Assembly: GCF_028867935.1 (NCBI RefSeq)
Contig: NZ_JAPQNS010000001.1
Span: forward strand, 1,116,001 to 1,180,000
Reading direction: 5' to 3'
Length of the DNA stretch: 64,000 nt
DNA from: Flavobacterium sp. SUN052
GTDB taxonomy: Bacteria > Bacteroidota > Bacteroidia > Flavobacteriales > Flavobacteriaceae
The position numbers and the translations under genes were made by a program. Positions within the stretch are counted from its first letter, which is position 1, and each line of letters opens with the position of its first letter. Below the pieces are notes generated by a model, which worked only from the letters and a program-made list of their open reading frames with translations, had not been told where the DNA came from and did not search any database. Shown in pieces: positions 6,828 through 29,312 of this stretch.

Positions 6828-8027
6828 ATGTTTCTCGACTTCTTTGTTCTCCTTCGTCGCCATCATCTTCCTGTCACGTTGCCGGAGTATCTGACGTTGC
6901 TCTATGCATTAAGGAGCAATGTAGCCGAGCCAACGATCGACGATTTTTATTATCTAAGCAAAACCGCCCTGGTCAAACACGAACAACACCTCGATTTATT
7001 CGACCGGGTGTTCAGTGATTTTGTGGCAGGACGTGAGTCGGTAACGGCAGAGGTATTGCCCGTTATTCCCCCCGAATGGCTCAACAATGCACTTGTCAAT
7101 GAGCTAACCGATGAAGAAAAAGCCGCTATCGAAGCATCAGGTGGCTTCGAATCCCTTTGGGAACGATTTCGCCAGTTGATGGATGAGCAGAATGAACGCC
7201 ATGAAGGCGGGAATAAATGGATTGGAACCGGAGGTACATCACCGTTTGGAGCCACTGGTTACTCCCCCGAAGGATTTAAAACTGACCAAGGCAAACCCGG
7301 TCAAGGCAATCGTAAAGCAGCAAAAGTGTGGGAGAATCGGGAGTACAAAAACTACGCCGACGATATTGAACTGAATACGCGTAATATGAAAATGGCCCTG
7401 CGTCGGTTGCGTATCCTGACACGAGAAGGAGCCGAAAACGAGCTGGACATAGATGGAACAATAGACCGAACCAGTCGAAACGCGGGTATGCTCGATATTC
7501 AGATGCAGTCGTCGAAACAGAATCGGGTGAAGGTACTGATGTTATTCGACGTGGGCGGCTCAATGGACGACCACATTGACTTGTGCAATCAATTGTTTTC
7601 AGCAGCCCGGTATCAGTTTAAACACCTTGAGTTTCTGTATTTCCATAATTGTGTTTATGAAACACTTTGGAAAGACAACGCACGCAGAAAAGATCGGTTA
7701 TCAACCTGGGAGGTGTTACACAAATACAATAAAGAATACAAAGTGATTTTTGTGGGCGACGCCAGCATGTCGCCCTACGAGATCACCATGCCAAAAGGCA
7801 GTGTAGAGCATTACAACGAAGAATCGGGAATGATATGGCTGGAGCGGTTTAAAGCGCAGTACCCGCATTTGGTCTGGCTAAATCCAATGATTCCGGCCTA
7901 TTGGCAGTATACCCAAAGCCTGGATATAATTCGAAAATGGTCAGCGAACCGGATGTTTCCGCTCACCCTAAATGGCCTGACTGGGGCCATGAAGAGTTTG
8001 AAGAATCCAAAAGTGACTTTTGAGTAA
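6828..8027 (+). CDS. VWA domain protein (CoxE-like), MoxR partner
   Basis: A 399-residue protein when started at the ATG at 6828. The frame is open to an ATG at 6783, but those 15 extra codons would be read from the hairpin repeat and lack family character. The N-terminal half is a helical domain (FLDFFVLLRRHHLPVT). The C-terminal half is a vWA-like domain with a variant MIDAS motif DVGGSMDDH, in which glycine replaces the first serine of DxSxS; this variant is usual in CoxE-like proteins. It also has FHNCVYETLW and GDASMSPYE, typical of the family. It pairs with the MoxR ATPase as a putative chaperone or activation module for an unknown client. Confidence 0.88.
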   Translation: MFLDFFVLLRRHHLPVTLPEYLTLLYALRSNVAEPTIDDFYYLSKTALVKHEQHLDLFDRVFSDFVAGRESVTAEVLPVIPPEWLNNALVNELTDEEKAAIEASGGFESLWERFRQLMDEQNERHEGGNKWIGTGGTSPFGATGYSPEGFKTDQGKPGQGNRKAAKVWENREYKNYADDIELNTRNMKMALRRLRILTREGAENELDIDGTIDRTSRNAGMLDIQMQSSKQNRVKVLMLFDVGGSMDDHIDLCNQLFSAARYQFKHLEFLYFHNCVYETLWKDNARRKDRLSTWEVLHKYNKEYKVIFVGDASMSPYEITMPKGSVEHYNEESGMIWLERFKAQYPHLVWLNPMIPAYWQYTQSLDIIRKWSANRMFPLTLNGLTGAMKSLKNPKVTFE

Positions 8028-10725: not shown

Positions 10726-12249
10726 ATGGATTCCATTCTTCCCCTTCCCGCTCAGGCCATTAAGCCGGGAACGAGCACAGGTCAACAGTTCTGGCATTCT
10801 ATTGAAAAGACACTCGATTCGTATTCGCCCGTTGACGGAAAACTTATTGCCCGTGTATATACTTCAACACGTCATGATTATGATCGGGTTGTAGAAACTG
10901 CCCGGCAGGCTTTTGGTGAATGGAGGCAGATGCCTGCGCCAAAACGGGGTGAGATTATTCGGCAAATGGGCGATCAGTTCCGGCTATACAAAGCGGATTT
11001 GGGAAAACTGGTTAGCTACGAAATGGGAAAATCGTTGCAGGAAGGACTAGGTGAAGTGCAGGAGATTATCGACATCTGCGATTTTGCCGTGGGCCTTTCT
11101 CGCCAGCTTTATGGCTTGTCAATGCATTCCGAGCGACCCAATCACCGAATGTATGAACAGTGGCACCCGTTGGGCGTAGTGGGTATTATATCGGCCTTCA
11201 ACTTTCCGGTGGCCGTGTGGTCGTGGAACGCGATGCTAGCCTGGGTTTGTGGGGATGTGTGCATCTGGAAACCATCCGAAAAAACACCCCTGACGGCTCT
11301 GGCCTGCCAGCAGATTATCCAGGATGTGCTACGTAATAATGATGTTCCCGAAGGCGTATCGTGCCTGGTAACGGGTGGTCGCGAAGTGGGCGAATGGCTG
11401 GCTCGCGATCCTCGCGTGGCCCTAGTATCGGCCACGGGAAGCACCCGAATGGGTCGGGCGGTGGGTACGGCTGTTGCTGAGCGCATGGGCCGGAGCCTGC
11501 TCGAATTAGGGGGTAACAACGCCATCATTGTATCGCAACATGCCGATTTGGCCATTGCCATACCCGCTATTGTGTTTGGTGCCGTTGGAACAGCAGGTCA
11601 GCGTTGCACCAGCACGCGTCGATTAATTGTTCACGAAACAATTTATGAGGAAGTAAAAAGCCGACTGGCAAAGGCCTATAGTCAGCTTCGGATTGGTAAC
11701 CCGCTGGAAGAAATCAATCATGTGGGGCCGGTCATTGACCAGCAGGCCGTAAGGACCTATCAGTCGGCCGTGGATGCTATTATACAGCATGGTGGTCGGT
11801 TTTTGGTAGAGCCCGGTGTTTTGGAAGGCGACGGGTTTGAATCAGGTTGTTATGTGCAGCCATGCGTTGCCGAAGCTGAAAATGATTGGGCCATTGTGCA
11901 ACACGAAACCTTCGCGCCAATACTATATATAATGAGTTACCAGACGCTCGACGAAGCCATTGCCATGCAAAATGGAGTGCCTCAAGGGCTTTCGTCGGCT
12001 ATCTTTACGCTGAATCTTCGCGAAGCCGAGCAGTTTTTAGCTGCTGCCGGGTCCGACTGTGGCATTGCCAATGTAAATATCGGCACTTCGGGTGCTGAGA
12101 TTGGGGGTGCTTTTGGGGGTGAAAAGGAAACGGGTGGAGGACGTGAATCGGGTTCAGATGCCTGGAAAGCGTATATGCGTCGGCAAACCAACACAATCAA
12201 TTATGGCACAACAGTGCCGTTAGCACAGGGAATAAAGTTTGATTTTTAA
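10726..12249 (+). CDS. Aldehyde dehydrogenase, ALDH7-like; predicted 2-oxoglutarate semialdehyde dehydrogenase
   Basis: A 508-residue NAD(P)-dependent aldehyde dehydrogenase. The catalytic residues are E260 in LLELGGNN and C294 in GTAGQRCTSTRR. LELGGNNAIIV and the C-terminal INYGTTVPLAQGIKF are signatures of the ALDH7 family (alpha-aminoadipate semialdehyde / piperideine-6-carboxylate dehydrogenase). Its neighbours form a hydroxyproline degradation set, in which the last step is oxidation of 2-oxoglutarate semialdehyde to 2-oxoglutarate, so I predict that reaction; lysine semialdehyde oxidation is the alternative. The ATG at 10726 is chosen. The frame stays open into the upstream terminator, but those 27 codons would be made from the terminator stem. 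Confidence 0.88.
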   Translation: MDSILPLPAQAIKPGTSTGQQFWHSIEKTLDSYSPVDGKLIARVYTSTRHDYDRVVETARQAFGEWRQMPAPKRGEIIRQMGDQFRLYKADLGKLVSYEMGKSLQEGLGEVQEIIDICDFAVGLSRQLYGLSMHSERPNHRMYEQWHPLGVVGIISAFNFPVAVWSWNAMLAWVCGDVCIWKPSEKTPLTALACQQIIQDVLRNNDVPEGVSCLVTGGREVGEWLARDPRVALVSATGSTRMGRAVGTAVAERMGRSLLELGGNNAIIVSQHADLAIAIPAIVFGAVGTAGQRCTSTRRLIVHETIYEEVKSRLAKAYSQLRIGNPLEEINHVGPVIDQQAVRTYQSAVDAIIQHGGRFLVEPGVLEGDGFESGCYVQPCVAEAENDWAIVQHETFAPILYIMSYQTLDEAIAMQNGVPQGLSSAIFTLNLREAEQFLAAAGSDCGIANVNIGTSGAEIGGAFGGEKETGGGRESGSDAWKAYMRRQTNTINYGTTVPLAQGIKFDF

Positions 12250-12278
12250 GATAATAAGAAACACAAAATTCAATTTTT

Positions 12279-13190
12279 ATGGCTGTTACCCCCACTTGGC
12301 AAGGCGTTTACCCTGCTTTATTAACCCCTTTCACTGCCGACGATACGGTAGATCTTGACCTCTTTGAAACCAACTTGCTGGCACAACTGGAAGCTGGAGT
12401 ACATGGTTTTATACTGGGCGGGTCACTGGGCGAAGCCAGTACACTGACTCTATCTGAAAAGCAGCAGTTGCTGGAAAGAGCGCTGGCGGTGAGTAATGGC
12501 CGGGTACCGGTGGTGATGAACATTGCCGAATCGGTAACGAGCCAGGCTATCCGGGCCGCGAAAGAAGCTGAAGAAGGGGGAGCCGATGGCTTGATGCTTT
12601 TGCCACCCATGCGTTACTCGGCTGACGAACGGGAAAATGTCGCTTTCTTTCAGGCTGTAGCCGAATCGACCAGTTTGCCCATTATGCTTTACAATAACCC
12701 GGTCGATTATAAGATTATGATCTCGGTGAGCATGTTCCAGCAACTGGCTAAACTGCCCAACATTCAGGCAGTTAAAGAATCGACCCGCGATCTGACCAAT
12801 ATTGTCAGAATGAGAAATGCGTTCGGCGATCGGTTCAAAATTATGGGCGGGGTGGATACGCTGGCATTGGAGGCACTGCTATTGGGTGCCGATGGCTGGG
12901 TTGGCGGTTTGGTGGATGCTTTTCCGCAGGAAACAATTACTTTGTATCAGCTTGCTCAGAACGGTCAACTCGAAGAAGCCCGCCAACTGTATGGTTGGTT
13001 TATGCCCTTACTCGAACTGGATATTCACCCAAAATTGGTGCAGTACATCAAGCTGGCAGCCACCGCCACCGGCATCGGTTCTGAGTTTGTCCGGGCACCG
13101 CGTTTGCCACTAGTGGGTGAAGAGCGCGCCCGGGTTCAACAAATTATTCAACAGGCGCTGGCAATCCGGCCCGAACTGTCTGTCTTGTAA
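12279..13190 (+). CDS. DHDPS/NAL-family lyase, predicted pyrroline-4-hydroxy-2-carboxylate deaminase
   Basis: A 303-residue class I aldolase-fold protein of the dihydrodipicolinate synthase / N-acetylneuraminate lyase family. The Schiff-base lysine is K166 (IQAVKEST), the catalytic tyrosine is Y138 (IMLYNNP), and the substrate-loop motif reads GGSLGEAST rather than the GTTGE of true DapA. Together with the epimerase and FAD oxidase next to it, this fits the deaminase that converts pyrroline-4-hydroxy-2-carboxylate into 2-oxoglutarate semialdehyde and ammonia. It starts 29 bases after the dehydrogenase and ends 3 bases before the epimerase. Family membership is firm; the substrate is inferred from context. 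Confidence 0.88.
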   Translation: MAVTPTWQGVYPALLTPFTADDTVDLDLFETNLLAQLEAGVHGFILGGSLGEASTLTLSEKQQLLERALAVSNGRVPVVMNIAESVTSQAIRAAKEAEEGGADGLMLLPPMRYSADERENVAFFQAVAESTSLPIMLYNNPVDYKIMISVSMFQQLAKLPNIQAVKESTRDLTNIVRMRNAFGDRFKIMGGVDTLALEALLLGADGWVGGLVDAFPQETITLYQLAQNGQLEEARQLYGWFMPLLELDIHPKLVQYIKLAATATGIGSEFVRAPRLPLVGEERARVQQIIQQALAIRPELSVL

Positions 13191-21194: not shown

Positions 21195-22586
21195 TTATTT
21201 ACCCCACATCGCGTTAGCCGTGTCGGGGAAGAACAAGGTCAACTCAGGAACGTTGGCAACCATTCGGTTAGCCCATTCAACGCCCTGCATGAGTGAGTGA
21301 TCCTGATTACTAACTTCGTATTTCCAGGCACCAAACCGACCCCGCGACGAGATACAGAACGGTTCCAGTTTTGGGAGAACAGCTTTCAGAATACCGTCGC
21401 GCTCAACTGATGGCGTTGGATAACCGTAATCGAAAGCGACGTGGAACGTGGATACCACATCATCCGCCGACTCGATTAATTGATCTTCTATCAAGGCTTT
21501 GATGGTGTCTGCAATCAAGGTTTCGCGGTCCACTGGTTTAGCCGAAGACTCACTCGTTTCGGTCATCAACGACCAATATTGCGTGCTGTCGGGAACGTTG
21601 TTTGGACTGTAGTTCGAGAACACCGTCACCCGGTAATACGGGCTGTTGGTTTCAGGGAAATACATCCAGCACATCGTTTCGAGGCTTTTCTTGGGTTGCC
21701 CTTTCAGGCCAATACCTACCACGTTTGTCGATGAGTGTTTCAGCCCCTGCGCCGTGGCTACCGTTTCAGCATCGAGGCCTACTACTTTTTTGGTGAAGAT
21801 ATCCAGCGGCATTGTATTGAGCAGATACTCATACTCAATGGTCTCGCCATTGGCAAGAATGATCTTCTGTTCAGTTCCGATTACTTTGTCGACGGTTGCG
21901 TTGAGTTTGATGTTATCGCGGCCCACCATATCGCCCACCGATTCCCAGATACCGCCCGTTCCGCCATGTTTGGGAAACTGGAACGTGCTGTTGGGACCCC
22001 AGGAAAAATCGTCGTTATTGAAAATGATATTTTTTGTAACCCGAGCCAGATCCGTTACGGCTACCCGCTCACCAACCCAAACTGCGTTCATCTCTTCGGT
22101 TGGGTACGCCCACACCTTGAAATTGTAGGGGAACATGAACGTTTCGGCGAGGCCCGGCCCAAAGGTTTGCAGAATCCACTCGCGGAAGTTTTTGGGCTTC
22201 TGAGTAGTTGGGTTTTTATACACATGGATAATACCTTCAAGGCATTTCCACATGGTTTCAGGAGTAAGGTATTTAATGTTGTTCTGGAACGGATAGGGCA
22301 CGAACCGATTCTCGATCCAGACCCATGATTCCCGCTGATGCTTTAGCCAACCGTCTTCGCCGAGGGCTTTAAGCATGAGGTCATCAAAATACTTGTAGTG
22401 AGAAAACTGCACGTGACCACCTACATCCCAAACGAATCCTTTGTCGTCTTTAAAACTTTTGGACAGGCCACCAATGCGATCTTCTTTTTCTAAAACAATG
22501 AAATCAGTTACGCCGAGTTCTTTAAGTCGGTAAGCAGCTCCCAAACCTGTTGGTCCAGAACCGATAATGACATATTTATACTGCAT
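21195..22586 (-). CDS. glf: UDP-galactopyranose mutase, eukaryotic type
   Basis: A 463-residue FAD protein that converts UDP-galactopyranose to UDP-galactofuranose. The N-terminal VIIGSGPTGLGAAYRL is the FAD-binding motif. Many later segments match what I remember of fungal (Aspergillus) mutases far better than short bacterial Glf: GGHVQFSHYKYFDD, VPYPFQNN, PYNFKVWAYPTEEM, WVGERVA, GGTGGIW, YFPETNSPYYR, FSNYSPNN, RGRFGAWKYEV and NQDHSLMQGVE. The length also fits the longer eukaryotic form (about 480-510) more than bacterial Glf (about 370-400). It would supply galactofuranose donors for the surrounding glycan locus. Generic annotation would probably call it a protoporphyrinogen-oxidase-like or FAD/NAD-binding protein. 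Confidence 0.85.
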   Translation of the reverse strand: MQYKYVIIGSGPTGLGAAYRLKELGVTDFIVLEKEDRIGGLSKSFKDDKGFVWDVGGHVQFSHYKYFDDLMLKALGEDGWLKHQRESWVWIENRFVPYPFQNNIKYLTPETMWKCLEGIIHVYKNPTTQKPKNFREWILQTFGPGLAETFMFPYNFKVWAYPTEEMNAVWVGERVAVTDLARVTKNIIFNNDDFSWGPNSTFQFPKHGGTGGIWESVGDMVGRDNIKLNATVDKVIGTEQKIILANGETIEYEYLLNTMPLDIFTKKVVGLDAETVATAQGLKHSSTNVVGIGLKGQPKKSLETMCWMYFPETNSPYYRVTVFSNYSPNNVPDSTQYWSLMTETSESSAKPVDRETLIADTIKALIEDQLIESADDVVSTFHVAFDYGYPTPSVERDGILKAVLPKLEPFCISSRGRFGAWKYEVSNQDHSLMQGVEWANRMVANVPELTLFFPDTANAMWGK

Positions 22587-22599
22587 GGGGAGATTTGGT

Positions 22600-22667
22600 A
22601 GCAGTTAGCTGTGGCAGTTGGCAGTAATACCAGTGGCTACAACTGCCAACTGCTACTGCTTGCTGCT
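22600..22667. repeat. Hairpin of GCAGTTGG words between the mutase and GT2 genes
   Basis: Arms 22600-22625 and 22642-22667 match at 22 of 26 positions, with the inner 12 perfectly paired. Each arm is a run of GCAGT-like words. The right arm ends next to the GT2 stop codon (22669). Confidence 0.85.
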
Positions 22668-22668
22668 A

Positions 22669-23430
22669 CTAAACACTAACTGGTTCTGGTTTTTTCAGTG
22701 CTTTCACTTTACGACCTAACTCAAGCCGGAACTGCGCTAACTCCATGAAGCTCTGAATACAGACTTTCAGGAGTTTCCAGTTCATGATGGAAACGGTTCC
22801 TGTTTCGCGCTCTTTATGAACAATGGGGATGTCGAAGGAATCATTGCCCGCTTTTTTGGCCATAACAGCCAGGAAAATATTGGGCGCGAAAGGGACAGGA
22901 GTGGGCAACTGAGCCAGCAATTTCCGCAAGAAACTCCCACGGATAAGCCGGAACGGAATGTTGCTGTCCATAATATACGTTCCGTAGATCAGCGCAATAC
23001 TCCCCCGGAGAATCCGCGTAATCCAGAGACGCATGGTGGCATCGTGCCGAACTTCACGATAGCCTAGAATAAACTGCGATTGATCACGTTTGGCCCAGAG
23101 CTTGGTAAAATCGTCGGTGATAAACTGGTCGTCGCTGTCGGTTTGGAATACATATTCCGAATCGAGGGCAACAGCCTGCCGATAGCCATTGACAACGGCG
23201 TTACCATGACCACCATTAGGTTGGTGAACGACCATTAGTTTGGGGTAGCGTTCTTTGATGCTGTCTAGAATGGCACCAGTTTTATCGCGGGAGCCGTCGT
23301 TGATAACGATCAGGCGGGTATTATCGGTTGGAAACTGGCGATCCAGCATATCGGTCCATTGCCGTACAACGAGTTCGATGCACTCTTCTTCGTTGTAGGC
23401 CGGCATCACAATTGACAGCAAAAGACTCAT
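22669..23430 (-). CDS. Glycosyltransferase family 2
   Basis: A 253-residue GT-A-fold transferase like dolichol-/polyprenyl-phosphate sugar synthases. The start VMPAYNEEECIE and VINDGSRDKTG are nucleotide-binding motifs, and QTDSDDQF carries the metal-binding acidic motif. A GGHGNAVVNGYRQA helix follows the first motifs. There are no C-terminal membrane helices, unlike the GtrB-like fusion protein in the same locus. The C-terminal tail is basic (LGRKVKALKKPEP) and may sit on the membrane. The product is likely a sugar linked to polyprenyl phosphate or a growing glycan; which sugar is unknown. It lies between two hairpin-filled gaps. Confidence 0.88.
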   Translation of the reverse strand: MSLLLSIVMPAYNEEECIELVVRQWTDMLDRQFPTDNTRLIVINDGSRDKTGAILDSIKERYPKLMVVHQPNGGHGNAVVNGYRQAVALDSEYVFQTDSDDQFITDDFTKLWAKRDQSQFILGYREVRHDATMRLWITRILRGSIALIYGTYIMDSNIPFRLIRGSFLRKLLAQLPTPVPFAPNIFLAVMAKKAGNDSFDIPIVHKERETGTVSIMNWKLLKVCIQSFMELAQFRLELGRKVKALKKPEPVSV

Positions 23431-23434
23431 GTAT

Positions 23435-23533
23435 GATTTGGGATTTTGGGATTGTGGATTTCGGAACGGTCCGCCGAAGCGGTCAAAATTACGGACTCAA
23501 AAATCTATAATCCGCAATCCCAAATCCGAAATC
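23435..23533. repeat. Hairpin of GGGATTT words between GT2 and the acyltransferase
   Basis: The left arm (about 23435-23462) is a run of GGGATTT-like words. The right arm (about 23507-23533) is the complement (AATCCCAAATCC). They pair nearly throughout, with a one-base bulge and a few mismatches. A small ccgc-cgaa-gcgg stem-loop (23471-23482) sits in the loop. The right-arm 19-mer at 23515-23533 recurs with one mismatch, inverted, inside the coding sequence at 27359-27377. The remaining bases to the acyltransferase stop (23534-23636) show nothing further. Confidence 0.85.
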
Positions 23534-23636
23534 ACTTTAATGACACGCAAAGATAGGTAATTGTTACGGGTGAGATTAACCTTTAAATAGGACTTTATCA
23601 AGCGGGAGTGCCGTTCGTTGTTGTTTTGGTTGTATT

Positions 23637-24740
23637 TCAGTAAGAAAATTTGTCTTTCAAAGAGTTAATTGGCTTTTCGACAAGGTGCCACGACAAAGCC
23701 GCCAGAGCAACAGTTAAGGTAAAGAAATAGACGAGCTGAAAAACGGACGTTGTTTGTAGAAAAGGCAAAACGGATGTGGCTTTTCGCCAGACCCGCATTG
23801 TTATATACGTTGGCTGGGTATGATAGTAGTTGAAAACGATGTTATGAAACAGATAGAGCCCGTAACTAATCTGTCCTAAATACTTGGCTACTTCGTTCTC
23901 TAACAGCCACTTAATAGGTTGCCCAAAGCCCAAAACCGCCCGCCCAATAATAGCCGCACAAAAGACCGACGTGACCAACCGATCGGTTACATCAGTGAAA
24001 ACGTTACGGGCGGGTTCCACAGTGATCAGAAAATACAGATGGACTACATACAGCACCAGACTGCCCAGCAGAAGTGTATTGCTGCTAAAGATTTTGTCAA
24101 ACAGAGCACGTCGGTAAATAATAAGCCACGATAGCAAACCGCCTATTCCAAAAGCATCCAGACAGGTCGGCATTAATACAAACTGTGCCATCCAGGGCGC
24201 ATCTGTCACAAAGAGAGCTACTCGGAGTAAAAAGGAAATGGCAACCAGGCTCCAAAGCATTCGCAAAAAATAGCGTTCAGGAGTGAACAACAACAGGAAA
24301 GGAAAAAAGAGATAATACTGCTCTTCCACGGCTAACGACCACAGGTGATCAATGGCGCCCAGCCAGTTTTGATGAATGACAATCCAAATATTGGTGGTGT
24401 AAGTAATGAGCCACCAGAACGATAGCCTGACCCCCTGAAAGCGCACTAATGCTAATATCAAAATGGTCAGGTAATAAACAGGCCAGATGCGGAGGTTACG
24501 GCGGATAAAAAACACTTTCAGCGAATGCCCATGCCCACGACCTAGTTCGGTGTCGCGTTGTTTGCTGTTAATAAGGATTCGGGTAATAAGAAAGCCACTC
24601 AGAACAAAAAACAGATTCACGCCGAAATATCCGAGCGGAAGCACGTTCGCCTGACCCAGCCAGTGGTCGATCATGACGAGCGTTACGGCAATGAACCGGA
24701 GTCCATCCAGCTGCACAAGATATTGTCGATGGTTGCTCAC
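23637..24740 (-). CDS. Acyltransferase family 3 (OafA-like)
   Basis: A 367-residue polytopic membrane acyltransferase (AT3 family) of about ten helices. The family start LDGLRFIAVTLVMIDHW is intact, including the conserved histidine. FFVLSGFLITRIL and the SLAVEEQYYLFFP motif follow, both diagnostic. AT3 proteins move acetyl or other acyl groups from the cytoplasm to sugars of lipopolysaccharide, capsule or other glycans. There is no C-terminal SGNH domain, but a separate SGNH lipoprotein is encoded later in the same locus and could act as partner. The start is GTG (24738-24740), overlapping the preceding gene's TGA by four bases. Confidence 0.92.
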   Translation of the reverse strand: MSNHRQYLVQLDGLRFIAVTLVMIDHWLGQANVLPLGYFGVNLFFVLSGFLITRILINSKQRDTELGRGHGHSLKVFFIRRNLRIWPVYYLTILILALVRFQGVRLSFWWLITYTTNIWIVIHQNWLGAIDHLWSLAVEEQYYLFFPFLLLFTPERYFLRMLWSLVAISFLLRVALFVTDAPWMAQFVLMPTCLDAFGIGGLLSWLIIYRRALFDKIFSSNTLLLGSLVLYVVHLYFLITVEPARNVFTDVTDRLVTSVFCAAIIGRAVLGFGQPIKWLLENEVAKYLGQISYGLYLFHNIVFNYYHTQPTYITMRVWRKATSVLPFLQTTSVFQLVYFFTLTVALAALSWHLVEKPINSLKDKFSY

Positions 24741-26530
24741 AGAGACGTAAATGTTACGGTTTGATTAGTCATATTTAGCTGGATTTGGTCATTCCGATTC
24801 GTTAGCAAACCAAAGCGATATTGGCCCGGTTTGAGGTGTTCCTGCAATACCTGCGCCCGAATACCAGCAGGCAGAAAATAACCATCGAAACCACTTAAAG
24901 CAGTTGGCGACGGACGTAATGGACGGGCAGGGAACAGATACGTATTCTGGCCACTCGTCATGTAAATATAAGTGCCATCGGTAGGTCGATTTAGGCTTGG
25001 ATTAACACTGTTAGATTTGTTTATCCAATACATAAAGCGTTGGGTGTCAAACTGGTCTAATGTAGCCGAAGTGGGCGCTGTTAGCCATGACTTGGCGCTT
25101 AATTGCCCTGTTCGACCATCATAAAAAGTTGACTCAGTCGGTGCGAAAACGGAGGAGTCTGCCCGTTGCTGGTCGGCAGGGTTATTGGCAAGGTAGTTAA
25201 AATACTCCGCTGTGGTGCGACGGTGCTGATTGATAATTCCTTCGAGACAAAGGTAATCGGAGAACAGATTTTGCCCAATGGAGAGTGCCAGAACACCCGC
25301 CCAACTCCACCTAAAAGCAGGTCGTGGGGCCTGGCCAAACCGAGCTAAAACATACAGGTAAACCACAGACAACATCAGTGCCGAATAGACTTTGTAACGC
25401 CCTTGTAACAGATACCCCGGCCCCGCAAAACCCACTCGTGAATACACGGTGATAGCGGCAGTCGCTAAAAGGAAAAGGAGTGCGGAGTGGAAAAAAGTCG
25501 GCGTTTGGAAAAGGGCAACATTGGAAGCGGTTGCGGCTTTTTGACCTTTTCCCCATTTCTGATTGATGCCTCGTTTGCCTTCTTCAAGTAAACAATACAC
25601 CGCAACTCCTGCTAGTATGGCTCCAAGAATGATGGTTAACCAGAGCGGATTTTCATAGCCATAGGCACCCGCGCCAGAGTAGGGAAATGGATCGGCGAAA
25701 GCCCCAAAAAAGACAAAGTACGCCTTTACCCAGTCAATAAACGGATATCGAAAAGGAGAGGGAAAAAACGTAATGCGGTTGTAGTGGTAGAAATAACCGC
25801 CAATGCTTACCAAAGAAACCAGCCCCCAAAGTGCTACAAAACCCCATTGGTAAAGCAGCGGTGCTGCACTCTTTAAAGGATTTTTCCCAGTGACCGTTTG
25901 CCAAACTAATACGGTTCCCCCAGCGATCAGTATTAATGCGCCATTGCCACTCGTGTATGTGGCTAAAACACCAAGGGCAAGGGCTAGCCAACGCCCGGTA
26001 GCCGTCTGCCTGGCAAGGGCATAAAAACTACCTAATGCAAAAACCAGCACCCAGAAATTCTGGATTGAAGCCATAGCCCAAAGCAGATTTTCATGGGATT
26101 GCAGCGTAAATAACCAGAATGGCACTGGCAGCAAATACACCCAGGGCAGTTTTGTTGTCTGGCGAAAAACCGTTGCCAGTATCCCAAACAGAACCACTAA
26201 TCCACTTACTCCAAAAAGTGTCAGACCGTAATAGTTCAGTGAGCCGGTCAGTTTATACCAGCTCGCAAACAGTAAACGGGTCCATACAATCCGGTGTTCC
26301 CAGTGCTGATCGAAAAGGTGCAGGAGCTTTTGGCGCCCCGATGGTTGGGCTTTCATCAGAAGCAGTTGCGCCTGGACCAGGTAATCGTCCCAATAGGGCA
26401 GATTGAGTGCATAGGTTAACACCGTAGCCAGAACCAATCCGATTGGTACCAGCATAAGTAACCATGCCGCAAGCGACTGAGTAGTAAATGAAAAACTATT
26501 AGATGAGAGGAGTGTGCTATGGTCCGACAT
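24737..26530 (-). CDS. Polytopic membrane protein, GT-C-like paralogue A
   Basis: A 597-residue membrane protein with about 11-12 helices over residues 15-430 and a soluble C-terminal domain. After the first helix comes YWDDYLV, an acidic pair in the first extracytoplasmic loop where GT-C glycosyltransferases carry their catalytic aspartate, then DQHWEHRIVWTR. It is a tandem paralogue of the next upstream gene: shared segments are WDD, EHRIV, an SIQNF/ALQNF helix, TSGNG, TAAI-YSRVGF/TAAI-WSRVGF and RYK-YS. No named family is recognised, and a GT-C activity using polyprenyl-phosphate sugars is inference. It starts 2 bases after the stop of paralogue B. The variable loop after about residue 300 contains an 8-bp inverted pair in the DNA (25507-25514 / 25545-25552). 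Confidence 0.7.
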   Translation of the reverse strand: MSDHSTLLSSNSFSFTTQSLAAWLLMLVPIGLVLATVLTYALNLPYWDDYLVQAQLLLMKAQPSGRQKLLHLFDQHWEHRIVWTRLLFASWYKLTGSLNYYGLTLFGVSGLVVLFGILATVFRQTTKLPWVYLLPVPFWLFTLQSHENLLWAMASIQNFWVLVFALGSFYALARQTATGRWLALALGVLATYTSGNGALILIAGGTVLVWQTVTGKNPLKSAAPLLYQWGFVALWGLVSLVSIGGYFYHYNRITFFPSPFRYPFIDWVKAYFVFFGAFADPFPYSGAGAYGYENPLWLTIILGAILAGVAVYCLLEEGKRGINQKWGKGQKAATASNVALFQTPTFFHSALLFLLATAAITVYSRVGFAGPGYLLQGRYKVYSALMLSVVYLYVLARFGQAPRPAFRWSWAGVLALSIGQNLFSDYLCLEGIINQHRRTTAEYFNYLANNPADQQRADSSVFAPTESTFYDGRTGQLSAKSWLTAPTSATLDQFDTQRFMYWINKSNSVNPSLNRPTDGTYIYMTSGQNTYLFPARPLRPSPTALSGFDGYFLPAGIRAQVLQEHLKPGQYRFGLLTNRNDQIQLNMTNQTVTFTSL

Positions 26531-26532
26531 GG

Positions 26533-28293
26533 TTACCAGTTCTTTTTAAGGTTGGTGGGGCCGGACGTGTCAGTAGGGTGTGGATTGATCGTCAGCGTGC
26601 GATTAGTGGGTCGAACAACACATTCACTTTTCCAGAAGTCATATGACAACACCGCTAGTTTGTAGGTACCGGGTGCTGGTTCGCTAGCGGGCAAACTTGC
26701 AACCATATCGCGGACGGGATAAAGCCCCCTCCTCAGTACAGTCAGTGCATTATTGGCGGGGCTGGGTGTGGCTCCATACAGGTATGTCCGTTTGCCAGAT
26801 TGTAACAAAAGAGTTAAGCCTGCATCGGGAATAACCAACGAAGGTTGGGGGACAGGCAAGTCGAGCGTATCCAAAGTGCTCTTGATGATAAACTGGCCAC
26901 CCGTTTCGTAGACTGTATCAATGGGGAACGGTTCAGCCGCGCTACTGGTCTGGTAAATTGTTGGCAAACAACGATCGTAATAGGCTGAAGCGTTGTCAAT
27001 CCATCGGGCTGTGGTTGGGTCAATCCCCGACACTGGGCTGTTACTCAGATACGTCCAGTTATATTGGTTGGTCAGTAGCCAGCGACGCCACCAAAGTACT
27101 TCATCGGCGTATGTCAGGTATGATAATCCAGCGATGGCAACGCTGCCTGTTAACCCCAAAATACCGATAAACCGTCGTAATGATCCACTCAATTGAGTAA
27201 CCGCGAAAACGTAGGCTACGGACAGTAGTGTGAGTGAGTAAATCTTATAGCGACTGGTAATCAGTACATCGAGCCCAAAACCCACCCGCGACCAGGCCAC
27301 AATGGCAGCAGTGCCGAGCAAAAAGGCGACGGAGCCCAAGAAGAAATTTGGGATTTGGGATTTTGGATTTGGGATTGATGAAGGGGCTTGGGATTTTAAT
27401 TGTTGAATTAATAGCCAAACTGCATAGCCGATAACTCCCAATGTAAGCAGTGCCCCTAAAATCAAACATACCGTAAATGCGCTTCCAATTGGAAAAACCT
27501 CCCCTGCTGCCCCGTTGAATGCCAGCCAGCCTTTCAGTAAATCGCCTACACTGCCGCGAGCAGGTGGGTTTCCGGCCGGTTTTTCATAACCCAAAAAGTA
27601 TAGACCAATAATAATCACTGTACTTACACCCCAGATTTTTAATGGCTGAAAACGACGCTGTAAGACAAGCAAAACTGCTCCAATGGGCCAGATTAAAAGC
27701 CCATTTCCACTGGTGAGGGTCGCCAGAATTCCCAGTATGATGGCTGCTGGTAGACTTTTATTAAATGATAAGGCGTAAATAGCCCCCAGCACGAACAGTA
27801 CCACCGAAAAGTTTTGCAGGGCGGCCATACCCCAAAATGCATTTTCCCAGGAAGAGAGATTGAAAAGCAGGAAGGCAGCGGGAGGGAGGTAGGCTAGTCG
27901 CGAAAGAGATGACATTTTCTTTTTGTTCTCCAGAGAAAAGGATGTCATTTCTTGCCCCCGCGCCAGAACCGCTCCGAAAATGCCCAACAGTCCCAACAAA
28001 CTCAAATTTCCCAACACCATTAAATGCAGGTAGTTAAGCTTGCCAAACATCGTGTAATCGAGCCACGTAACAAAGCGGTCGAGTACGATACGATGTTCGT
28101 TGTGCTGCCGGAAAAGCTGGTAGATCTTGCCCGTAAACGTTGTTTCCTGTTCGCTATAAAATAGGTAGGCTTTCAGCGCGTGATCGTCCCACTTAGGCAC
28201 GTTCACCGCCAAATGCCTCCAGCATAGCCAGAATGCTACGATTGGAAGTAGTGTTAGAACAAGAGCAGGAAAAACGGAAAGACGTTTGAGCAA
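26533..28293 (-). CDS. Polytopic membrane protein, GT-C-like paralogue B
   Basis: A 586-residue paralogue of the following gene with the same plan: helix, KWDDHAL, QHNEHRIVLDR, a series of helices, then a soluble C-terminal domain with FDxxxxP-like beta segments. Two loops carry DNA-repeat-derived insertions. QEMTSFSLENKKKMSS (about 15 residues, absent from paralogue A) is encoded by an imperfect hairpin at 27902-27955. SIPNPKSQIPNF is encoded by four AATCCCAAA-like words at 27343-27378. The first codon is TTG (28291-28293), as no in-frame ATG lies nearby, and it is only 15 bases from a 93-base hairpin. Function as a membrane glycosyltransferase is inferred. Confidence 0.7.
   Translation of the reverse strand: MLKRLSVFPALVLTLLPIVAFWLCWRHLAVNVPKWDDHALKAYLFYSEQETTFTGKIYQLFRQHNEHRIVLDRFVTWLDYTMFGKLNYLHLMVLGNLSLLGLLGIFGAVLARGQEMTSFSLENKKKMSSLSRLAYLPPAAFLLFNLSSWENAFWGMAALQNFSVVLFVLGAIYALSFNKSLPAAIILGILATLTSGNGLLIWPIGAVLLVLQRRFQPLKIWGVSTVIIIGLYFLGYEKPAGNPPARGSVGDLLKGWLAFNGAAGEVFPIGSAFTVCLILGALLTLGVIGYAVWLLIQQLKSQAPSSIPNPKSQIPNFFLGSVAFLLGTAAIVAWSRVGFGLDVLITSRYKIYSLTLLSVAYVFAVTQLSGSLRRFIGILGLTGSVAIAGLSYLTYADEVLWWRRWLLTNQYNWTYLSNSPVSGIDPTTARWIDNASAYYDRCLPTIYQTSSAAEPFPIDTVYETGGQFIIKSTLDTLDLPVPQPSLVIPDAGLTLLLQSGKRTYLYGATPSPANNALTVLRRGLYPVRDMVASLPASEPAPGTYKLAVLSYDFWKSECVVRPTNRTLTINPHPTDTSGPTNLKKNW
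27343..27378. repeat. In-frame GGGATTT repeat block inside paralogue B
   Basis: Four imperfect copies of GGGATTT (plus strand) in a row. The 19-mer at 27359-27377 equals the inverse of 23515-23533 at 18 of 19 positions. Translated on the minus strand it gives the proline-rich loop SIPNPKSQIPNF between two membrane helices. Confidence 0.85.
27902..27955. repeat. In-frame imperfect hairpin inside paralogue B
   Basis: Left arm 27902-27920 and right arm 27932-27955 share ATGACAT/ATGTCAT and tttct/agaaa flanks. The element encodes an extra loop of about 15 residues that paralogue A lacks at the matching position. Confidence 0.7.
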
Positions 28294-28308
28294 GGTAACT
28301 GAATGGTT

Positions 28309-28401
28309 GTACGATGGGTTTGCAACCCGTCGGGCCGATAGGCCAACTTTTATTAGACTACAATTGGCCTAATGGCCCGACGGGTTGCAAACCCATCGTA
28401 C
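28309..28401. repeat. Very long hairpin, 28-bp perfect arms plus 8-bp inner stem
   Basis: Outer arms 28309-28336 and 28374-28401 are perfectly complementary. After two mismatches, taggccaa (28339-28346) pairs with ttggccta (28364-28371). It fills the gap between the transketolase C stop (28404) and the TTG start of paralogue B (28293). There is no T-run beside the stem. Confidence 0.95.
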
Positions 28402-28403
28402 GT

Positions 28404-29312
28404 TCAAATCAATTCCCGCAGACACCGGGCAATATTCTCTGGATCAAGGCCCGACTGCTGCTGGTGGTATTTCTGATCGCCGTATAATCCATTTGGATAC
28501 CCTTGCGCTGCGAGACTCACAAACCGGCTTGGGACAGCACCTTTTGCCAACAGTTGTACCGATAATTGCTGAGCCAGACCACCGATGGACACGTGTTCTT
28601 CGGCAATGAGCAAGGGTTTCCCTGCCCACCGTTGAGCAAGCTCGGCAGGGAGTTCCAGCGGTAGATTTGTGGCCGTAAACATATCAAACTGACCAGCTAA
28701 ATCTGACTGTTGAAGGGCTGTCAGGACGTTGGCGGTTACTGGACCAAGGGCAACCACGGTTCCTTTGGCCTTGTTCTCTGCCAGAACAATCTGCTTGAAC
28801 GTACCCAATTGTTCGGCTCCATCGGGGGTTTTGGGCCCTGCCCCCAGACGTAGATACGCCGGTCGACTTTCGGCCACAATCTGATCCAGCATCGGATCAA
28901 TCTCGTCGGCAAAGGCTGGTATATAGGTATTTACGTTTTGTAAGCCGCTCAAACAGGCCAGGTCTTCAATAGCGTGGTGCGTGCTACCCATGATGCCATA
29001 GCCGTAACCACCGCCGTTTCCGACAATGAACACAGGCATGTTGTGCAGGCAGACATCGTTCCGGAACTGTTCCAAACAGCGGTAAACGGCAAAGGGAGCA
29101 ATGCTGTAACAAAAGACTTTAAATCCCTTATAAGCCATACCAGCGGCCATACCGATCATATTTTGTTCGGCTACCCCCGCATTGATAAATCGCGGACCCA
29201 TAAGGTCGCGGAGGTTTTCAAGCGCATTGTAGCCAAGGTCGCCGGTAATAAAAATGATTTTGTCGTCGGCTTTAACGAGCCGTTCGATACCGGCTGAAAA
29301 TTCTTTACGCAT
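28404..29312 (-). CDS. Transketolase, C-terminal subunit
   Basis: A 302-residue protein equal to the pyrimidine-binding and C-terminal domains of transketolase. The catalytic glutamate is in NAGVAEQNMIGMAAG, followed by the FCYSIAPFAVYRCLEQ and GSTHHAIEDLACL segments that line the thiamine diphosphate. The N-terminal half is encoded 2 kb upstream as a separate gene. Split transketolases of this type occur in archaea and in bacterial sugar loci. The pair would move a two-carbon ketol unit, which in a glycan locus suggests building an unusual ketose, pentose or branched sugar rather than central metabolism. It begins 10 bases after the fusion gene and ends 3 bases from a giant hairpin. Confidence 0.93.
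   Translation of the reverse strand: MRKEFSAGIERLVKADDKIIFITGDLGYNALENLRDLMGPRFINAGVAEQNMIGMAAGMAYKGFKVFCYSIAPFAVYRCLEQFRNDVCLHNMPVFIVGNGGGYGYGIMGSTHHAIEDLACLSGLQNVNTYIPAFADEIDPMLDQIVAESRPAYLRLGAGPKTPDGAEQLGTFKQIVLAENKAKGTVVALGPVTANVLTALQQSDLAGQFDMFTATNLPLELPAELAQRWAGKPLLIAEEHVSIGGLAQQLSVQLLAKGAVPSRFVSLAAQGYPNGLYGDQKYHQQQSGLDPENIARCLRELI

Follow-up and report, generated by a model that had tools for sequence, protein, structure and literature searches.

An in-frame heptamer array in a membrane-protein gene and the intergenic heptamer hairpins of its genome

How does a membrane-protein gene come to carry, in frame, a run of bases that also occurs as the arm of an intergenic hairpin? The question is raised by a 36-base block in a 64,000-nucleotide stretch of DNA assigned to Flavobacterium sp. 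SUN052 (the window). As claimed in an earlier note on this DNA, the reverse complement of 27359-27377, within the block, is identical at 18 of 19 bases to 23515-23533 in a hairpin 3.8 kb away. The note had ascribed the shared sequence to copying or to a common generating process, and our analysis favors the second of these over the first.

The in-frame block and the neighboring hairpin

The block starts at a codon boundary and is read in frame. Its residues are flanked by hydrophobic stretches (261-299 and 314-335; Table 1), and hydropathy agrees with the proposal of a proline-rich loop that connects two membrane helices. Tandem Repeats Finder reports a period-7 array of 4.4 copies with 91% matches at 27346-27376, and periodicity at lag 7 reaches 19/21, a value equaled by 0 of 1000 shuffles. 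By eye, it has four G-tracts, GGG, GGG, GG and GGG, a number that in heptanucleotide repeats of the Xanthomonas/Nostoc type would allow a G-quadruplex, and a hairpin scan of the sites found the block without a second arm.

Table 1. Features of the window around the in-frame block
Feature	Position	Strand	Basis
Heptamer array in frame with the word AATCC-N-A/C (coding strand), encoding residues 306-317, SIPNPKSQIPNF	27343..27378	-	sequence comparison, Tandem Repeats Finder, hydropathy
Host gene (paralogue B), 586-aa membrane protein, no Pfam match	26533..28293	-	relatives, Pfam search
Paralogue A, 597 aa, without a AATCCNMAATCC array	24737..26530	-	35% identity with B across residues 10-569 of the latter
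Acyltransferase family 3 protein, upstream of the hairpin	23637..24740	-	family search
Family 2 glycosyltransferase on the downstream side of the hairpin, start codon abutting it	22669..23430	-	family search
Intergenic hairpin, GGATT-type arm ~23437-23462, AATCC-type arm ~23503-23536	23430..23540	.	folding, arm comparison

Relatives of the host protein are found in Spirosomataceae, e.g. Rudanella, Spirosoma, Fibrisoma and Runella. Among the 120 homologues listed and aligned, of 326 found and up to 81% identical, none carries the block peptide at its loop, and the length of this loop is hypervariable. The loop of P0007 (76% identical) is by eye shorter by 7 residues, i.e. 21 bases or three units, but in other close homologues the differences in length are not 21 bases, a point against the reading preferred below. 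In the orthologue from the sister genome G394, AATCC-like bases were seen by eye in another loop. The block is thus apparently a recent insert, private to its lineage, in a hypervariable polar loop, and we infer that it has no effect on the host protein.

Two side observations concern the surroundings of this gene. Within the stated kinship group of 100 genomes the host protein occurs in one, namely its own; the stated genus and order are otherwise without it, the relatives by sequence being Rudanella and Spirosoma, and the kinship label may be wrong. Just upstream of the gene (window 28308-28400) lies a long inverted repeat beginning GTACGATGGGTTTGCAACCCGTCGGGCC, which has two close relatives in a 400-kb sample (L180 ~6911-6998 and L186 ~12221-12310) and represents a separate palindrome family.

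The neighboring hairpin sequence, 23430-23540, folds at -38 kcal/mol (z = -4.65), and 0 of 200 shuffles folded as well. As a source for direct copying into the gene, its arm at 23515-23533 is the top 19-base match (18/19) in the 626 kb compared, but by a single base over many family members at 17/19, so that its pairing with the block is not special. Over 32 bases it loses the first place to L002, a hairpin ~80 kb away that matches at 28/32, followed by at least nine further distinct placements at 27/32. We therefore regard direct copying as very improbable, and a seven-base-repeat process common to gaps and gene as the likelier origin.

A heptamer family in intergenic gaps and protein linkers

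In the window's own genome (G000, 8.1 Mb), AATCCNMAATCC yields 83 matches as compared to 2 for a control in which the pattern is read backwards, and the three-unit pattern AATCCNNAATCCNNAATCC yields 17 as compared to 0. The 83 matches form 43 sites, which under a naive gene model were sorted by hand into 35 intergenic sites, 5 in-gene arrays (the window block, L022, L096, L021 and L090) and 3 probable chance matches. The intergenic sites lie between co-directional genes in 28 cases, convergent genes in 6 and divergent genes in 1 (hand tally); divergent gaps are avoided, since they make up 45 of the 178 gaps of a 464-kb sample (P = 0.0005). By eye, several arrays occupy a gap entirely, between the stop codon on one side and the start codon on the other. 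Tandem seven-base units with fixed and variable positions, present in many copies per genome, predominantly intergenic under this naive gene model and rarely divergent, are what characterizes heptanucleotide repeats.

We also considered that the block could be a chance product or ordinary low-complexity coding sequence. Three other in-gene matches of two units each (L045, L094 and L099) do look random, and their number is about that predicted by the two control hits. The periodicity of the block, the excess of the three-unit pattern and the lack of conservation of the peptide at its loop nevertheless make this explanation extremely improbable. The outcome that the earlier note had named as speaking against its claim, a block conserved in distant orthologues together with a chance-level match, is not what we found. 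Its idea of a common generating process is instead supported by the genome-wide family, by the absence of the peptide at this loop from all 120 listed homologues and by similar in-frame arrays elsewhere, some with other words.

In other genomes, the counts of AATCCNMAATCC and its control were 58 vs 3 in G394, 27 vs 4 in G403 (Runella), 12 vs 2 in G399, 9 vs 7 in G397, 8 vs 3 in G398, 7 vs 1 in both G395 and G396, 7 vs 34 in G404, 5 vs 2 in G402, 4 vs 2 in G400, 3 vs 3 in G393 (Rudanella paleaurantiibacter) and 0 vs 1 in G401. In 793 kb of G393, a scan independent of any word detected 51 lag-7 and 44 lag-14 runs, no other lag between 5 and 16 exceeding 18; 80-kb samples of G404 and of G088 yielded 11 lag-7 runs each, and G394, with 22, is a selected sample. 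At the cut-off used, the same scan gave no lag-7 excess in 464 kb of G000, where lags 7, 8 and 16 had 5, 6 and 7 runs, respectively, perhaps because two letters of each unit vary. The other eight unselected samples gave 0 to 3 lag-7 runs, and 50 kb of E. coli gave 0.

In-frame arrays are carried by unrelated genes, as are REP, MITE and Rickettsia palindromic elements; those other than the window block lie in linkers of housekeeping proteins. The array lies in a linker of a CcmF-like protein (L022, PF01578) and of an M14 peptidase (L096, PF00246), and in the N-terminal tail of a protein that we take to be a penicillin-binding protein (L090). Others lie in a 2-oxoacid dehydrogenase E2 gene (L114, PF00198) and inside a 1377-aa frame (L117). 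A whole AATCC hairpin is read in frame at two sites: in L021, behind what is presumably a Tat signal, and in L125, a mutase in which MM_CoA_mutase and MeaB domains are fused and which we take to be IcmF. All six in-gene arrays consisting of a single arm read AATCC on the coding strand, which encodes polar residues.

Across five protein families, a period-7 array is clear in 3 of the 21 orthologous linkers compared (L022 and L096 in G394, L125 in Fibrisoma), and a fourth linker, that of L125 in G000, is borderline (p = 0.042). The remaining 17 are without an array, including all five in G393 and all five for the window protein. The arrayed linkers differ in word. The CcmF-like linker is of the ATCCAAA type in G000 and of the NTCCNAN type in G394, the M14-peptidase linker of the AATCCNA type in G000 and of the YAACAGT type in G394, and the IcmF linker holds an AATCC hairpin in G394 and a CCCCAAG-type array in Fibrisoma; in each case 0 of 1000 shuffles were as periodic. 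The word is thus unrelated in two of the three. The sister genome G394 shares a linker array in two of the three G000 cases tested, one with a related and one with an unrelated word, and the related words of the CcmF linker could reflect common descent. As a side observation, the CcmF-like match in R. paleaurantiibacter (G393:C12:468853-470574) holds one TAA stop.

Among intergenic G000 sites, two have both flanks in the part of R. paleaurantiibacter compared, and different arrays occupy both gaps: an ATTCATC-type array in the window gap and a GTTT-type array in that of L006, where the G000 array comprises two full units only and no hairpin. Such periodicity occurs in 50 of 417 background gaps. 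In a reverse test on 21 orthologous gaps, the single gap with periodicity in G393 lacked it in G000, where one of the other 20 had it; this test did not support a sharing of positions. Recurrence of arrays at the same place in the gaps of relatives is therefore tentative. AATCC hairpins with altered letters persist in two gaps of G394, the window gap and one that we presume to be next to nusG.

The L093 and L126 junctions were rejected as orthologous gaps because their flanking genes are in opposite order, and ATTCATN was rejected as a G393-wide family, having one match in that genome. Elsewhere ATTCATN matches number 73 in G396 (Arsenicibacter), 27 in G399, 2 in G397 and 0 in five others; nearly all of those in G396 belong to one long ATTCATT array of ~70 units (G396:C335:8455-8950).

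Hairpin arms, polarity and a possible mechanism

Gapless hairpins, the inverted (convergent) pairs of heptanucleotide repeats, overlap the array at 26 of the 43 G000 sites, with a median arm of 31 bases and a mean pair identity of 0.91. Pairing is closer between the two arms of one hairpin than between arms of different hairpins: the mean score is 23.4 within and 13.7 between hairpins, the own arm is best in 21/26, and 0 of 10,000 permutations scored as high, albeit with arms picked by their own pairing, which favors this result. Eleven of 23 sites in G394 have a hairpin, with the own arm best in 8/11, and several of these are other palindromes beside the array. An inner core, GCTGACGC / GCGTCAGC, is present in 16 of the 26 G000 hairpins and was also seen in G393, which suggests descent or mobility for some of them.

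Other palindromes were encountered as well. Those at L191 19294-19413 and L192 9747-9866 have stems of TTCGACTCCGCTCAGCCTGAC flanked by TTGCTGACGC / GCGTCAGCAA, a core that also lies inside many heptamer hairpins, and in G394 several heptamer arrays adjoin another palindrome, TTTGTCATCCCGA...GAGGGATCTAC (L126 9640-9762 and 10779-10871).

Among hairpins collected without reference to a word, all 23 with period 7 (five genomes, 17 from G393) show an excess of G over C in the 5' arm, and the remaining ones divide 120 to 67 in this respect. As a hairpin reads alike on both strands, this order, G-rich arm first, is a real asymmetry. In G000, one of 46 word-free hairpins passed the test for period 7, as compared to 4 for period 8. 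We know of no mechanism that predicts a fixed polarity over different words, and slippage alone does not predict it; such constancy places a sharp constraint on whatever produces these hairpins.

Our preferred reading, to which we assign a probability of about 0.6, is that the block was built by the same process as the intergenic heptamer hairpins of the genome. Replication slippage in seven-base steps would generate a tandem array, and the growing G-rich strand would fold back and copy itself by template switching, thereby adding a complementary arm and turning the array into a hairpin. Weak selection would let arrays survive between co-directional or convergent genes, and they could also persist in protein linkers where the insert is in frame and reads as polar residues.

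The main rival to slippage and fold-back copying is a mobile palindromic element, either REP- or MITE-like or akin to Rickettsia palindromic elements, copied by a transposase into gaps and genes, the block being a fragment of one copy. The many dispersed hairpins, the inner core that most of them share, the two whole hairpins in frame and the fixed polarity, which REPs likewise have, all fit such an element. Against it, a constant sequence with defined ends is lacking, as the arms vary between hairpins and match within them, orthologous places hold different words and the block is single-armed; on balance we consider it unlikely.

Alternatively, selection could maintain the hairpins as intergenic elements of regulation or mRNA structure (terminators, stabilizers or protein-binding arrays) that occasionally spill over into genes. 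Avoidance of divergent gaps, the matching of the arms and the retention of a hairpin despite changed letters in the two G394 gaps would be expected of them. However, words differ by genome, most orthologous gaps do not share the array, several arrays extend by eye as far as a start codon, where a terminator would be poorly placed, and Rfam gave 0 matches at the gathering score in window 22000-29000 and in L012, L026, L104 and L105. We hold this explanation to be decidedly unlikely.

If slippage and fold-back copying are indeed at work, tandem seven-base arrays would steadily supply new polar linker sequence to ordinary enzymes, and places with different words in related genomes would be natural replicates for studying the origin of such arrays, their spread and their folding into hairpins.

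Comparison with known repeat systems

Several known systems share part of these features. TAACTGA direct repeats, which for the most part immediately precede start codons and occur in Beggiatoaceae, Cyanobacteria and five Bacteroidetes, are likewise heptamer arrays in gaps, with other heptamers in the same gaps; they are direct repeats of one word, however, and matched arms are not a theme of the parts of that paper compared (PMC4679880). Rickettsia palindromic elements, families of ~150 bp with conserved peptides, are also palindromic repeats found in frame in unrelated genes but are not described as period-7 arrays in the relevant part of a review (PMC10969869). Inverted repeats homogenized by template switching resemble the present hairpins in that matched arms are created and kept, in coding sequence too, whereas the portions of the five papers compared describe no tandem seven-base array (PMC8794818, PMC8604942, PMC7202029, PMC4060949, PMC6649704). 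The open-licence literature searched held nothing on the peptide IPNPKSQ or on Spirosoma intergenic tandem-repeat hairpins.

The family most closely resembles the heptamer repeats of Xanthomonas (GGGAATC) and Nostoc (GGGGA(C/T)T), the closest known kind, whose seven-base units are likewise G-rich with fixed and variable positions. According to the portions of PMC4692102 compared, those of Xanthomonas are 89-93% intergenic, mostly co-directional, 7-8% divergent and 7-11% intragenic, and include 70 and 75 inverted 'convergent' pairs; the intergenic bias, the scarcity of divergent sites and the inverted pairs are all shared with the present family. We infer that these 'convergent' pairs have the G-rich arm first too. 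A more speculative extension, which we consider improbable, is that a dedicated, word-independent process in Bacteroidota writes period-7 hairpins, G-rich arm first, into gaps and in-frame linkers, revisiting places while the word changes by genome, and that the Xanthomonas pairs would arise by the same process. The present family differs in its unit, GGATTNN, in the use of other words by related genomes, sometimes at the same place, and in its in-gene arrays, which lie in frame in linkers; neither the change of word nor in-frame linker arrays figure in the compared portions of PMC4692102. Within the open-licence literature searched, two features appear to be new: different words in relatives at one and the same place, and arrays that lie in frame within linkers.
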